In this document: positions 2,524-6,217 of the stretch, one piece after another | Layout: every line of letters begins with the position of its first letter | How positions within the stretch are numbered: position 1 is the stretch's first letter | Origin: Sphingobacteriales bacterium | GTDB taxonomy: Bacteria > Bacteroidota > Bacteroidia > Chitinophagales > Chitinophagaceae | Assembly (NCBI GenBank): GCA_024642285.1 | Contig: JAHEBJ010000010.1 | Span: forward strand, 1-58,878 | Direction of reading: 5' to 3' | DNA length: 58,878 bases | Position numbers and translations under genes: made by a program | Notes under the pieces: model-generated | Databases searched by the model: none | What the model was told of the DNA's origin: nothing | Seen by the model: only the letters and a program-made list of their open reading frames with translations

Positions 2524-2552
2524 ATAATCGTTTTAGAAATTTAAACAATAAA

Positions 2553-2580
2553 AAAAGGTCAACATTCATGTTGACCTTTT
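2553..2580. terminator. Bidirectional intrinsic terminator
   Basis: A perfect 12-bp stem (2553-2564 with 2569-2580) with loop TTCA, A-rich on the left and T-rich on the right. It would end the GT39 transcript. It also lies just beyond the tRNA-Asn fragment, so it may have been the original terminator of the tRNA gene before the 2.9 kb insertion. Confidence 0.8.
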
Positions 2581-2624
2581 GCTCCCCCTGTTGGACTTGA
2601 ACCAACGACCCTCTGATTAACAGT
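2581..2624 (-). repeat. Truncated tRNA-Asn 3' part (direct repeat, att-like)
   Basis: These 44 bases match 5438-5481 exactly, in the same orientation; the match extends four more T residues to the left. On the minus strand it runs from the anticodon loop through the T-arm to the discriminator base. The D-arm and 5' acceptor strand are absent, so it cannot fold as a tRNA. A tRNA 3' portion duplicated at the far end of an inserted segment is the classic footprint of tyrosine-recombinase integration. Confidence 0.9.
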
Positions 2625-2679: not shown

Positions 2680-5241
2680 TCAGTTTTTCAAAATCTTAAT
2701 AGAAGATATCTGGTTGTTCCACTCCGGCGGTGCAATCCAGGCTCCTTCAATGATTATTGATTTTTCTTCAAAATGAAAATCGTAAAATACCTGCAGTTTA
2801 TATCCTTTGTTAACATGAATTGAACTGATATGATCGTTCCAGTGTTCGCCTACCCAATAGATATCATCAACTACTTCAAAGCTTTCGCCGTTAAAATCGG
2901 AACCATCAAACAATACCGCAACAGGCGTACTTTTCCCTTCTTTATTTGTTATGGAATAAATTTCTTTACGGCGGGGTTCGGAATAATTTATTACGATCTT
3001 TTTATTTTTCAGATCTACCAGTAGCTTTTGGCCATTTTCTTCGCTGCGTAAAAAAACATTCCATTCGTCTCTGCCGGTTTCAGTATAATTAGTTTCTCTT
3101 CCTGTGAACCTGCTGTTCCAGTCCTTCCATCGTTTACCTTCTATATTGCCGTTGGTATTAACGAGTATGCCTTTCTCCGTACCATCAACTGATTCATAGA
3201 CCACGGTTTGTAATAGAAAACCTGTTGCACTGTCAGCGTTGTTTTTTTTATGAAAAAAAGAAGATTCAGTACCCAGTTGAGGCCATGTGGTATAATTTTT
3301 TTGAGTGCCGGTAGCGGACTTGTATATTTCTGGATATTTGACCAACTCTTCTTCAGTGAAATACTTTTGTAGTATAATTTTAAATTCCTTTGAGCTGCGG
3401 ATAAAGTCAAAATCAGAATCATCCGCTATCGTATTTAAGGCCAATGCTTTCTTTTTTATCGCCAGTTCGAAATTGAACAGCGCTTCAGTCTTGTTTTGTT
3501 TTGCGCTGTATAAACTGGCAAGGTTATAATAAACAAACGAGGCATTTGGGTCAATTTCTAAAATCTTTTTGGAGCACTGCAGGGATTTATCATATTCCTT
3601 CAGATAATAGTAAACAACACCAAGACCCCAATAAGCATTTTTAAAATCTGGTTTCAGTGCTATGGCCGCCTGGGAATATTTTATAGCGTCATCGAATTCC
3701 TGCAGTTGCCAGAAAATTGTCGCCGTTTCAAGACAGGCATATGCATTCTTAGGCATCAGTTCAATATATTTTCTGAAATTAAGTTTTGCTTTTTCCAGGT
3801 AGCCTTTAAACTGATATCTTTTTGCCAGGTAATAGTTAGTATATGGGGCATTGGGCTCAAGTGATGCCGAAAGTTCAAGGCAGGAAATGCCATCGTCGTT
3901 ATCGAGCGTAAGTGATTTCAGGAACAGGATACGGGCTACAAGATTCCGGTATAAAAAATGTTTTTCTCCTAACAAACCGGCTGCTATCTCCAATTCGTTT
4001 ACAGCTTTTTTCAGGTCGGCAGAATCCACGGATTTAAAATTTCTCAGGGATTGGTTGTTTTCTCTGAGCATGGGTAAAAGTATGGCCGCAGCTTTCTCCT
4101 GCATGGCAGCGCTGAGGTTTCGCCTGAGCCCCAAAGCAATTTCACTTGTACTGTCTTTTTTTGTATAAAGTAAATAGTTACGATGGGCCAACAGCGTTTC
4201 TTTTTTTTCTATCAAGCTGTCGCAAATGCGGTACAATTTCTTTTGGGTACTGTCCAGTTGCTGTAACAATGAGGTGGTGGTGCCTTTAACATCTGCTTTG
4301 GCCAGAAAAACCAGGTTCTTGTTTCTCTCGGTTTTATAAGCCGCCAGCAAATCCTGATTTACAGTAGCGATTTTTTTTTCGGGATCCTCAATCTTTACAA
4401 TTGGATATTGTTGATTTGGGGCAGCCAATTTAGGAATATTGTCTTCAAGATATCGTTGTATTTCTTTTAGGTTGATTTCATTGTTATTGTCGGCATCAGC
4501 CATACCATAAAATCCTTCCATTAAAACGTAGGAAAAGAGACCTCTTCCGCCACCCCACTGTTCGCTTTCCAGCGAAAATTGATCGGATTTGCAGGAATAG
4601 ATCTTCACAGGTGCCGTCATGTTTTGCAAGGCCAGCGTTGTTATGCGTCCACCTTCGGTGCCGCCACTAAGGGGTTTGTCCAGGCCATTTGCATGGCAGG
4701 CATCAATAATTAAAATTACTTCGCAACCCTTTGCCGCCAATGGGTCAACAAAACGTGAGTTGAGATCTGAAGTCGAAATAAAATCGCCACTGAAAATATT
4801 TTGAAAATAATTCTGTTTGGGTGCGGCATATAGTAACAGTAAAGCCTGGTCCTTTAAAATATTGGCATCGTAGTCTCCATGGCCTGCAAAGAAGAATATG
4901 ACTCTATCTCCTTTTTTGAGATCATTAAGAATAATATCACTGATGGCATTACCAACATTTTGAAGCGTAGCTTTTTCGTTCACGAATAATTTCACATGAC
5001 TGCTGTCCAGGCCCATTCCATCCTTGCTCAGCATATAATTGGCGAAGACTTCGGCATCTTTGTGTGCAAAATTTAAGGGTGTCACTTCTTTATATTCAGA
5101 AACTCCGATGACCACAGCATAAGTAACGCTTGTGTTTGTAGATGAATCAGCAGTAAGGATAGCTCCACGGTTGTTTACAACCTGGGCATAATTCAATATG
5201 GGTAAAAACCAAAGGAATGATAAAATCAAAGACTTGAACAT
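2680..5241 (-). CDS. Secreted caspase-family protease with EF-hand, TPR and beta/gamma-crystallin domains
   Basis: I place the start at 5241 (MFKSLILS), which gives a clean signal peptide ending near NYAQ; the frame stays open 12 codons upstream to 5277. Residues here are counted from 5277. The caspase (C14) domain spans about 53-260, with catalytic His133 in FAGHGD and Cys194 in IDACH, both intact. A canonical 12-residue EF-hand loop follows at 261-272 (DADNNNEINLKE). Three to four TPR repeats occupy about 475-612. The last 80 residues look like a beta/gamma-crystallin domain with two calcium-clamp motifs, NDHISS and NNQISS. It probably cleaves proteins after Arg/Lys outside the cytoplasm, with calcium as a plausible activator. 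Both calcium roles and the substrate are inference. It is alone in a tRNA-flanked segment. Confidence 0.85.
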   Translation of the reverse strand: MFKSLILSFLWFLPILNYAQVVNNRGAILTADSSTNTSVTYAVVIGVSEYKEVTPLNFAHKDAEVFANYMLSKDGMGLDSSHVKLFVNEKATLQNVGNAISDIILNDLKKGDRVIFFFAGHGDYDANILKDQALLLLYAAPKQNYFQNIFSGDFISTSDLNSRFVDPLAAKGCEVILIIDACHANGLDKPLSGGTEGGRITTLALQNMTAPVKIYSCKSDQFSLESEQWGGGRGLFSYVLMEGFYGMADADNNNEINLKEIQRYLEDNIPKLAAPNQQYPIVKIEDPEKKIATVNQDLLAAYKTERNKNLVFLAKADVKGTTTSLLQQLDSTQKKLYRICDSLIEKKETLLAHRNYLLYTKKDSTSEIALGLRRNLSAAMQEKAAAILLPMLRENNQSLRNFKSVDSADLKKAVNELEIAAGLLGEKHFLYRNLVARILFLKSLTLDNDDGISCLELSASLEPNAPYTNYYLAKRYQFKGYLEKAKLNFRKYIELMPKNAYACLETATIFWQLQEFDDAIKYSQAAIALKPDFKNAYWGLGVVYYYLKEYDKSLQCSKKILEIDPNASFVYYNLASLYSAKQNKTEALFNFELAIKKKALALNTIADDSDFDFIRSSKEFKIILQKYFTEEELVKYPEIYKSATGTQKNYTTWPQLGTESSFFHKKNNADSATGFLLQTVVYESVDGTEKGILVNTNGNIEGKRWKDWNSRFTGRETNYTETGRDEWNVFLRSEENGQKLLVDLKNKKIVINYSEPRRKEIYSITNKEGKSTPVAVLFDGSDFNGESFEVVDDIYWVGEHWNDHISSIHVNKGYKLQVFYDFHFEEKSIIIEGAWIAPPEWNNQISSIKILKN

Positions 5242-5402
5242 ATCTGACTTTTCGAAAATAATGACCAGGCTGGTCAATGTATTAGATGGTATTCTGTGTA
5301 GTAATATAGTAAAAAAAGCGGGATGTTGTGTAGCCGGAAAAGACAGGGATTGGCAAACAAACTATGAGATCATTGAAATTCGGAGCAATCATAGGTGTAA
5401 AT

Positions 5403-5437
5403 AAAAAAGGATTTCGTTTACCGAAATCCTTTTTTTT
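5403..5437 (-). terminator. Intrinsic terminator downstream of tRNA-Asn
   Basis: Inverted repeat 5403-5416 with 5422-5435 around a five-base loop, A-rich on the left and T-rich on the right. It sits immediately after the 3' end of the minus-strand tRNA-Asn gene. It mirrors the hairpin at 2553-2580, which occupies the same position next to the tRNA fragment. Confidence 0.75.
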
Positions 5438-5438
5438 G

Positions 5439-5512
5439 CTCCCCCTGTTGGACTTGAACCAACGACCCTCTGATTAACAGTCAGATGCTCTAACCAACTG
5501 AGCTAAGGAGGA
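5439..5512 (-). tRNA. tRNA-Asn (anticodon GTT)
   Basis: The minus strand reads TCCTCCTTAGCTCAGTTGGT at its 5' end, with a normal D-arm, a seven-base anticodon loop TGTTAAT (anticodon GTT at 5478-5476), and a T-arm containing GGTTCAAGTCC. The acceptor pairs TCCTCCT with AGGGGGA (one U-G pair), discriminator G. CCA is not encoded. Its 3' part is duplicated at 2581-2624. Confidence 0.97.
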
Positions 5513-5643: not shown

Positions 5644-5707
5644 GGTTGAGAGGCAACTGTAGATCAATGAAAAAGAATTGGCTATACTTTCTATTGAATG
5701 ATACTGA

Positions 5708-5890
5708 TCAGGCTGCGTACCTTCTGTGCATCATTGTGTTACTTTTTCTTTGGATATTCCAAAGGTCGGCTGTGGTTAGTGTTTTAACAGGATTTACTGC
5801 CAGGCCTAAAGTTTCTTTTACTACAGTGGTTAACTTGTTTGTTTGCTCATTACTCATTTTTGCGAAGTTGATTTGTGATTGCTTTTTCAT
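5708..5890 (-). CDS. Small protein of unknown function (60 aa)
   Basis: I do not recognise this protein with certainty. It is basic, begins MKKQSQINFAK and ends with an Arg-rich tail (IQRKSNTMMHRRYAA); it has no cysteine, signal peptide or membrane segment. Support for it being real is contextual: it has a good Bacteroidota-type promoter about 90 bases upstream, a strong terminator downstream, and is isolated between the tRNA and a flavoprotein gene. The opposite-strand reading frame (5646-6020) is richer in Phe/Leu and looks like a shadow. My recollection is that similar short proteins with a DLWNIQR-like stretch occur in related genomes, but I cannot confirm that here. A peptide precursor is possible, but nothing shows it. 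Confidence 0.55.
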   Translation of the reverse strand: MKKQSQINFAKMSNEQTNKLTTVVKETLGLAVNPVKTLTTADLWNIQRKSNTMMHRRYAA

Positions 5891-6217
5891 GACTTTTAGT
5901 TTTTTATGTTTTAATATTTGTTTCTTTTTTTGTTTAGTAAATCTGGCTTTTTATCGCTTTGCTTACTTTGATAACACAAAGATAAGGGGAAGTACAGTAC
6001 TATGCAATATAAAGTACTAAGCATGTTTTAGTAATAGGCAGTAATTATTACCGATTGTAAGCTTCAAACCCGCTCTGGTATTGATTTTTATTTTTTATTA
6101 GGAAATTTTATGCCCAAAATAGCTTTGTGATGAACGGTAAATAGATGGGATGAATGACTTGAAAAAAGAAGCAAAAAACTGTTTTTGGGCAAATTTGCGA
6201 ATAAGAAAGATGGAAAA
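5891..6217. other. Intergenic region, 327 bp
   Basis: AT-rich stretch with no credible coding frame. It contains the promoter of the small gene (5978-6007) and an AT-rich leader. Beyond about 6010 I see nothing recognisable apart from the 3' border of the flavoprotein gene. Confidence 0.6.
5978..6007 (-). promoter_or_regulatory. Bacteroidota-type promoter of the small gene
   Basis: On the minus strand TTG (6007-6005) is separated by 19 bases from TATCTTTG (5985-5978), matching the Bacteroidota housekeeping sigma pattern TTG-N19-TAnnTTTG. Transcription would start near 5970, giving an untranslated leader of about 80 bases before the ATG at 5890. Confidence 0.6.

Follow-up and report, generated by a model that had tools for sequence, protein, structure and literature searches.

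What is a lone caspase-like gene doing between two copies of a tRNA-derived repeat, and would the encoded protein answer to calcium? These questions are raised by a contig of 58,878 nucleotides from a Sphingobacteriales bacterium (GenBank assembly GCA_024642285.1, contig JAHEBJ010000010.1), the whole of which is called the window below. The gene reads from an ATG at 5241 to a stop at 2680 on the minus strand (2680..5241) and encodes 853 amino acids, comprising a likely signal peptide, a Peptidase_C14 domain that includes an EF-hand loop, a tetratricopeptide repeat (TPR) tract, a beta domain, and a beta/gamma-crystallin domain. The open reading frame (ORF), the Pfam matches, and the motif positions agree with a first-pass annotation in which a C14 protease, an EF-hand loop, a TPR tract, and a C-terminal beta/gamma-crystallin domain share one chain. 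Residue numbers in that annotation exceed the present ones by 12, having been counted from a TTG at 5277, 12 codons upstream of the ATG. We hold, with middling confidence, that the product is a caspase-fold protein whose export is predicted, which calcium likely activates or stabilises through the EF-hand of its catalytic domain, and which its tail would tether to an extracellular or envelope partner.

The catalytic domain and its EF-hand loop

The C14 domain spans residues 41-282 (4396..5121, minus strand; Pfam E 3.3e-15, profile positions 3-223 of 233). Its catalytic pair consists of His121 in a GHG motif (4879-4881) and Cys182 in a DACH motif (4696-4698), and both columns are at least 90% conserved across 59 alignment rows. 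The profile match, the caspase fold, and the His/Cys pair together place the protein in peptidase family C14; the pair is the same one that was numbered His133 and Cys194 in the first pass, and it is intact. A part that looks p10-like is covered by both the C14 match and the structural model. By analogy with C14 relatives, the protein would be an active protease with a preference for basic residues.

When Foldseek was run with the full model, the 50 matches listed were TPR-type proteins. A second Foldseek listing recovered the caspase fold over about residues 39-294. The absence of crystallins from this second listing is uninformative, as the tail of the model is of low confidence.

In an EF-hand, two helices enclose a loop that has ligand-type residues at positions 1, 3, 5, 9, and 12. 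The loop DADNNNEINLKE (residues 249-260; 4462..4497, minus strand) lies inside the C14 match and has ligand-type residues at these positions. In the AlphaFold2 model, it sits between helices 235-247 and 258-273, with a block predicted local distance difference test score (pLDDT) of 97-98. The motif and this confident stretch of the model bear out the loop first placed at 261-272, which is the same loop counted from the TTG.

The loop is shared with most of the family. Homologous proteins number 143, of which 120 were listed, one of them (P0002) being the window's own protein; counts of loops and of tails refer to those listed. An anchor that itself demands the first Asp located the loop in 112 of the 120, with the remaining 8 lacking the anchor, and 108 of the 112 located loops are EF-like. 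By chance, as gauged with 2320 shuffled segments, the EF regular expression matches in 20 (0.9%). Of the 112 loops, 60 have a stricter form in which position 5 is Asp or Asn and position 6 is Gly. Moreover, among 91 C14-like ORFs of 80 fetched loci, 55 carry an EF motif within 100 residues from Cys+30. By these counts, the EF-hand belongs to the family at large, being common in this branch, and is no addition specific to the window's protein. For this reason, the chain did not gain it in one step with the crystallin domain.

The N terminus (residues 1-20; 5182..5241, minus strand) was read by eye as a likely signal peptide: a Lys, a hydrophobic run, and the end NYAQ. Relatives have similar N termini, and the AQ end is common to most of those displayed. 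The sequence indicates that the protein is likely exported, which disfavours a cytoplasmic phage sensor, as the first-pass annotation had argued from the same signal-like N terminus. Between the protease and the tail, the TPR tract and a TPR end-of-group domain occupy about residues 449-640 (3322..3897, minus strand), as seen in Pfam, NCBIfam, and the model. Pfam TPR families match within about 471-598, and the NCBIfam end-of-group domain matches at 570-624.

A rare C-terminal tail

The tail consists of two domains. The first is a beta domain with an ETGRDEW signature at about residues 674-765 (2947..3222, minus strand), which has no Pfam match and is found again in other proteins of the order. 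The second is the beta/gamma-crystallin domain, at residues 776-849 (2695..2916, minus strand). The clamp motif of beta/gamma-crystallins is N/D-N/D-x-x-S/T-S, and the domain has two such calcium clamps, NDHISS at residues 802-807 (2821..2838, minus strand) and NNQISS at 842-847 (2701..2718, minus strand). The Crystall profile PF00030 matches the whole chain at E 9e-5 and 23.0 bits, below the cut-off of 25, and matches the C-terminal piece at 25.0 bits, which is at the cut-off; the best E, 6.9e-7, belongs to the relative P0003. The PF00030 match with its two clamps marks the domain as a beta/gamma-crystallin. A profile of the C-terminal region, compared with solved chains, gave only crystallin-type matches up to E 0.7, the best being 3hzb (E 8.9e-5), which that listing labels just 'carbohydrate binding protein'. 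Both profile searches thus match the beta/gamma-crystallins that the first-pass annotation had named. Modelled alone, from 4 alignment rows, the tail reaches a pLDDT of 41.4, with 152 of 213 residues below 50; because the model is poor, the assignment of the tail's fold rests on sequence. Of the two calcium-binding folds first proposed, both have sequence in their favour, and the EF-hand also has a confident model, whereas the model of the crystallin domain is of low confidence.

The combination is as rare as first supposed. Among the 119 other listed homologues, only P0003, a metagenomic protein of 853 amino acids on a contig of 4.6 kb, has a PF00030 annotation and two clamps. P0003 has the whole architecture of the window's protein and is 63% identical to it: 78.7% over residues 1-300, 59.7% over 301-640, 36.8% over 641-765, and 62.5% over 766-853. 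The beta domain (36.8%) has therefore diverged between the two. A search with residues 640-853 found only these two proteins among 633 candidates of 0.55-1.75 times the chain length, and a search for short proteins with the tail found two crystallin proteins. In the open-access literature, none of the papers listed has a title on the combination of caspase, crystallin domain, and TPR, and nothing was found that joins peptidase C14, crystallin, and Bacteroidetes.

Parts of the tail do occur elsewhere. In the order, 16 of the 396 genomes searched match a tail profile, counting that of the window. All listed matches beyond the window cover either the crystallin part or the beta-domain part, and none covers both. 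Eight of these loci were read, and six proteins were scanned with Pfam. The ETGRDEW-like beta domain is present in four of the six (L146, L150, L154, and L155), singly or in tandem, and no Pfam family over cut-off covers it in any of the four. L146 is an exported-looking protein with three copies. In the other three, the domain co-occurs with a ricin-type lectin (L150), DUF7452 (L154), or MACPF (L155). The crystallin domain, in turn, is carried by L147, a GH76 enzyme that has a type IX sorting tail. Because the beta domain recurs beside ricin-type, DUF7452, or MACPF domains, a role in binding is suggested, and by this analogy the C-terminal extension is most likely a binding or anchoring tail. 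The MACPF protein (L155:1324-3183, plus strand) is likely exported and is cut by the locus end; it comprises the ETGRDEW-like domain, repeats, and MACPF.

A probable single-gene insert at tRNA-Asn

The gene lies between direct repeats. An intact tRNA-Asn (GTT) is called at 5438..5512 (minus strand), and a 48-bp repeat (5434..5481, plus strand) overlaps its 3' part. A detached copy, 100% identical, is found at 2577..2624 (plus strand), and both copies are putative attachment (att) sites. Allowing up to 3 mismatches, a 37-bp core of the repeat occurs nowhere else in the assembly. The insert is 2.86 kb long, and its sole cargo is the caspase gene; the only other ORF of at least 100 codons is a shadow frame. 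A search upstream of the gene with a regular expression for the Bacteroidota promoter consensus gave no match.

Comparison with relatives points to an empty site. A hairpin-bearing sequence at 2547..2580 (minus strand) is likely the original downstream flank, as it resembles the sequence that follows tRNA-Asn in three relatives' loci (L023, L031, and L032). A different hairpin with a T-run, read by eye after the intact tRNA (5404..5435, minus strand), was likely brought by the insert and has weaker matches in L020, L034, and L043. When the window's flanks are joined, they align unbroken through the tRNA-Asn region of L023 (206 bp, 82%), L031 (115 bp, 92%), and L032 (112 bp, 94%); beyond the repeat, the alignments extend for 56 bp in L023 and 30 bp in L031 and L032, chiefly over the post-tRNA hairpin. 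Flanks were checked at 20 loci with a called tRNA-Asn, 18 of which extend far enough downstream. In L023, L031, and L032, the match to the window's left flank has local scores of 44-46, which none of 300 shuffles reach, versus 16-22 for the insert side. A modest fit is seen for L037, L040, and L041 to the left flank (25-30) and for L020, L034, and L043 to the insert side (27-31), in each case with no shuffle of 300 reaching the score. The remaining usable loci fit neither flank clearly.

The left flank without the repeat, compared with 28 loci, has one weak match (L044, 39 bp). In the short loci of the relatives, the ArnT-like gene that adjoins the left flank is not found near the tRNA, and neither is the halogenase, except in L022, so gene order gives the empty site no backing. 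The perfect repeat and the site that appears empty in three relatives are the main support for the insertion.

The same tRNA is occupied by much larger islands in the genus. The repeat pattern is found in 23 of 59 genus genomes searched, the window's own included. Five clearly detached copies occur in four sister genomes (G004, G006 twice, G008, and G017), each on the same contig as an intact tRNA-Asn and about 21.6, 30.8, 33.9, 36.3, or 39.2 kb from it; this count leaves out L027 (G064) and L035 (G030), which are cut by contig ends, and L039 (G070). A tyrosine recombinase of 406-430 amino acids lies beside the detached copy in all five islands. From two islands (G004 and G008), proteins were picked by eye rather than surveyed, with eight scanned by PADLOC and seven by Pfam. 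Both islands have type I restriction-modification genes, and the G004 island also has a GajB-like helicase (PADLOC). The insert itself has no match to PF00589; the window's genome (G000) has three, on other contigs (C15, C65, and C81). The insert could be an eroded leftover of an element, or it could have been carried in by the integrase of another element. The first-pass view of a tRNA-bounded insert suited to accessory functions gains from the repeat, the empty site in three relatives, and the defence genes in two sister islands, which together suggest both an insertion and an accessory role; it loses from the presence of a single gene and the lack of an integrase.

Further observations concern the surroundings of the tRNA. 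The hairpin after tRNA-Asn varies widely within the genus (L020-L047), as if terminators were often replaced. L039 (G070:C5:50914) is a near-full match to tRNA-Asn with an altered 3' end and no ARAGORN call. The 39-kb island on G004 contig C6 encodes an 851-amino-acid reverse transcriptase fused to a HisKin-conflict domain (L052:12015-14570, minus strand) and a Piwi-domain protein of 684 amino acids (L052:15948-18002, minus strand). In the window, a 124-codon ORF beside tRNA-Asn (5646-6020, plus strand) matches no Pfam family at E 1e-5 or below and may not be a gene. Positions 6218-26785 hold a tryptophan-halogenase-like enzyme, two flavin oxidoreductases, an AMP-binding enzyme, a ketosynthase, and an MMPL-acyltransferase-methyltransferase fusion of 1281 amino acids, a set that resembles an aryl polyene or flexirubin pigment cluster.

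Possible calcium control, its alternatives, and known systems

In the working that we propose, the chain would cross the inner membrane unfolded and would fold where calcium is higher, with calcium bound at the EF-hand and at the crystallin clamps. The C-terminal tail would dock, the TPR solenoid would serve as a scaffold that presents substrates to the active site, and envelope or outside proteins would be cut. Loop and clamp sequences suggest a possible calcium response, and calcium gating of the protease is plausible. Tethering by the tail is suggested by the domain company of its parts elsewhere. Given an EF-hand in the p10-like part of this family, calcium control is a fair guess. It is not itself a new idea for bacterial C14 enzymes, because it has already been proposed for bacterial metacaspases (excerpts of PMC6426788). 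A fuller version is decidedly tentative: an extracytoplasmic calcium-gated caspase in which the p10-side EF-hand would be the family's switch, the crystallin-type domain an added anchor, and the whole a one-gene cassette in a tRNA att site that elsewhere holds defence islands.

Several observations weigh against calcium control and tethering. Position 6 of the EF loop is Asn and not Gly, 48 of the 108 EF-like loops fail the stricter form, and the regular expression failed in 36 of the 91 C14-like ORFs, where loops are degenerate or absent. The model is weak just past the catalytic Cys (block pLDDT of 55 and 68 for residues 181-200), and most of the tail is below 50 in the full model (about 27-52). 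A Pfam scan of the chain found no match to a type IX sorting tail, so the protein may remain periplasmic, beyond the reach of outside partners. Finally, orthocaspases are described as calcium-independent, which excerpts of PMC5756287 explain by the absence of p10.

The alternative that survives best, unlikely as we consider it, is that the protein serves in envelope housekeeping, as a protease or scaffold of the common Bacteroidota C14-TPR family, with calcium merely a stabiliser, as it is for many exported proteins, and the tail a neutral addition. The tail-less C14-TPR family is widespread, its EF-hand is conserved irrespective of the tail, and relatives often have other C14 genes as neighbours, those of a second family in 19 of the 58 loci. 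Against this, the window copy is alone between tRNA-derived repeats, and matches at E<=1e-30 are found in 6 of 59 relatives' genomes, the window's own included, with the others at no more than 36% identity; for both reasons the gene does not resemble a core gene. Across 39 loci of relatives and that of the window's own second copy, tRNAs occur in 6, so the tRNA site is no habit of the family. That second copy, on contig C58, is an exported-looking C14 protein that is 33% identical over residues 4-304.

The gene neighbours of homologues, whose survey the first-pass annotation had suggested, yielded nothing in 58 loci that explains the window copy. The scanned member of the second family is a C14 protein with a sub-cut-off match to DUF4384 (the family occurs, for example, in L066 and L103). 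Another family, of unassigned kind and with one member of 567 amino acids, lies near C14-TPR relatives in 15 of the 58 loci. Sixteen plasmid records matched the window's protein; the 10 that were listed match its C14 part alone.

An antiviral or antagonism effector, that is, defence cargo of the tRNA-Asn island site that would act at the envelope against phage entry or rivals, is improbable. The defence genes of the two sister islands lie at the same tRNA, and the tail's beta domain is found with MACPF in L155. A PADLOC caspase model also matches (E 2.6e-16), although the match is confined to the caspase domain, at residues 40-243. Known anti-phage caspase systems have partner genes, namely a sensor, a gasdermin, or a CRISPR effector; a search confined to the insert found none of these, and the insert has no second gene. 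Likely export would remove the protein from cytoplasmic sensing. The caspase-TPR profile matches none of 112 ORFs of at least 120 codons from the five sister islands, in a search that also took in 10 ORFs from another contig of the window's genome, and 50,697 phage records contain no match.

It is more improbable still that the crystallin domain is a calcium-set lid or a protease inhibitor, like the inhibitor family I36, which has the same fold. Apart from crystallin-type matches and a weak match to syncollin, Pfam reports Inhibitor_I36 over the crystallin stretch at 24.5 bits (cut-off 21.1). Other crystallin-domain proteins (L142 and L147) match I36 too, so the match reflects the fold, and the known I36 inhibitor acts on metalloproteases. 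An artefact is barely credible: a 48-bp repeat can mislead assembly, and the window is one of 161 contigs in its assembly, but the G+C content of the insert (39.0%) is close to that of the window (39.1%), and a chance run-on of two genes is excluded by the complete architecture of P0003.

Calcium control and tethering can be set beside known systems. Metacaspases (Arabidopsis metacaspases 4 and 9 and yeast Yca1) are the closest solved folds for about residues 39-294, at 16-19% identity to the present protein. According to excerpts of PMC5756287, the three metacaspase types need calcium, with metacaspase 9 as the exception, and cleave after Arg or Lys; their p10 calcium site is described there as an acidic 280-loop, and not an EF-hand as here. 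Orthocaspases such as MaOC1 are prokaryotic C14 proteins, as is the present one; they lack p10 according to the same excerpts, whereas a p10-like part is present in this family. The direct repeats at the MaOC1 locus lie on either side of an adjoining toxin-antitoxin pair (excerpts of PMC7935541) and do not enclose the caspase gene, in contrast to the tRNA-derived repeats described here.

Bacterial metacaspases with C14 and p10 number 1,121 sequences in the accessible portion of PMC6426788, in which an Asp of p10, put forward as a calcium-binding residue, is conserved with a few Bacteroidetes proteins as exceptions; the EF loop is a different site. The same portion reports an EF-hand motif in 7 archaeal proteins, and a term search of the main text of PMC3501461 found neither 'EF-hand' nor 'crystallin'. 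Bacterial caspases, orthocaspases, and EF-hands are named together in a single open-access paper, and among the papers listed on EF-hands, calcium, and bacterial metacaspases, one deals with caspase homologues of prokaryotes. With a large, likely exported Bacteroidota family that carries a conserved EF-hand in its catalytic domain, calcium control through a different site becomes testable.

Microbial beta/gamma-crystallins (3hzb, Protein S 1prr, and 2k1w) resemble the terminal domain by sequence; here, the domain ends a protease chain. The tRNA-Asn islands of the genus use the same tRNA and the same duplicated 3' end as the insert, but are 21-39 kb long with a tyrosine recombinase, whereas the insert is 2.86 kb and lacks one. 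With defence genes at the same site in sister genomes, are such enzymes exchanged one gene at a time, as weapons or shields of an accessory kind? The Bacteroidota chains annotated as 'caspase family protein' (P0004-P0112) are C14-TPR proteins of 57-25% identity, mostly with the EF loop, and those read have a signal-like N terminus, as here. Those displayed end in TPR-type sequence, whereas the window's protein ends in the crystallin tail. The rare tail and the single-gene insert are the most surprising features here.
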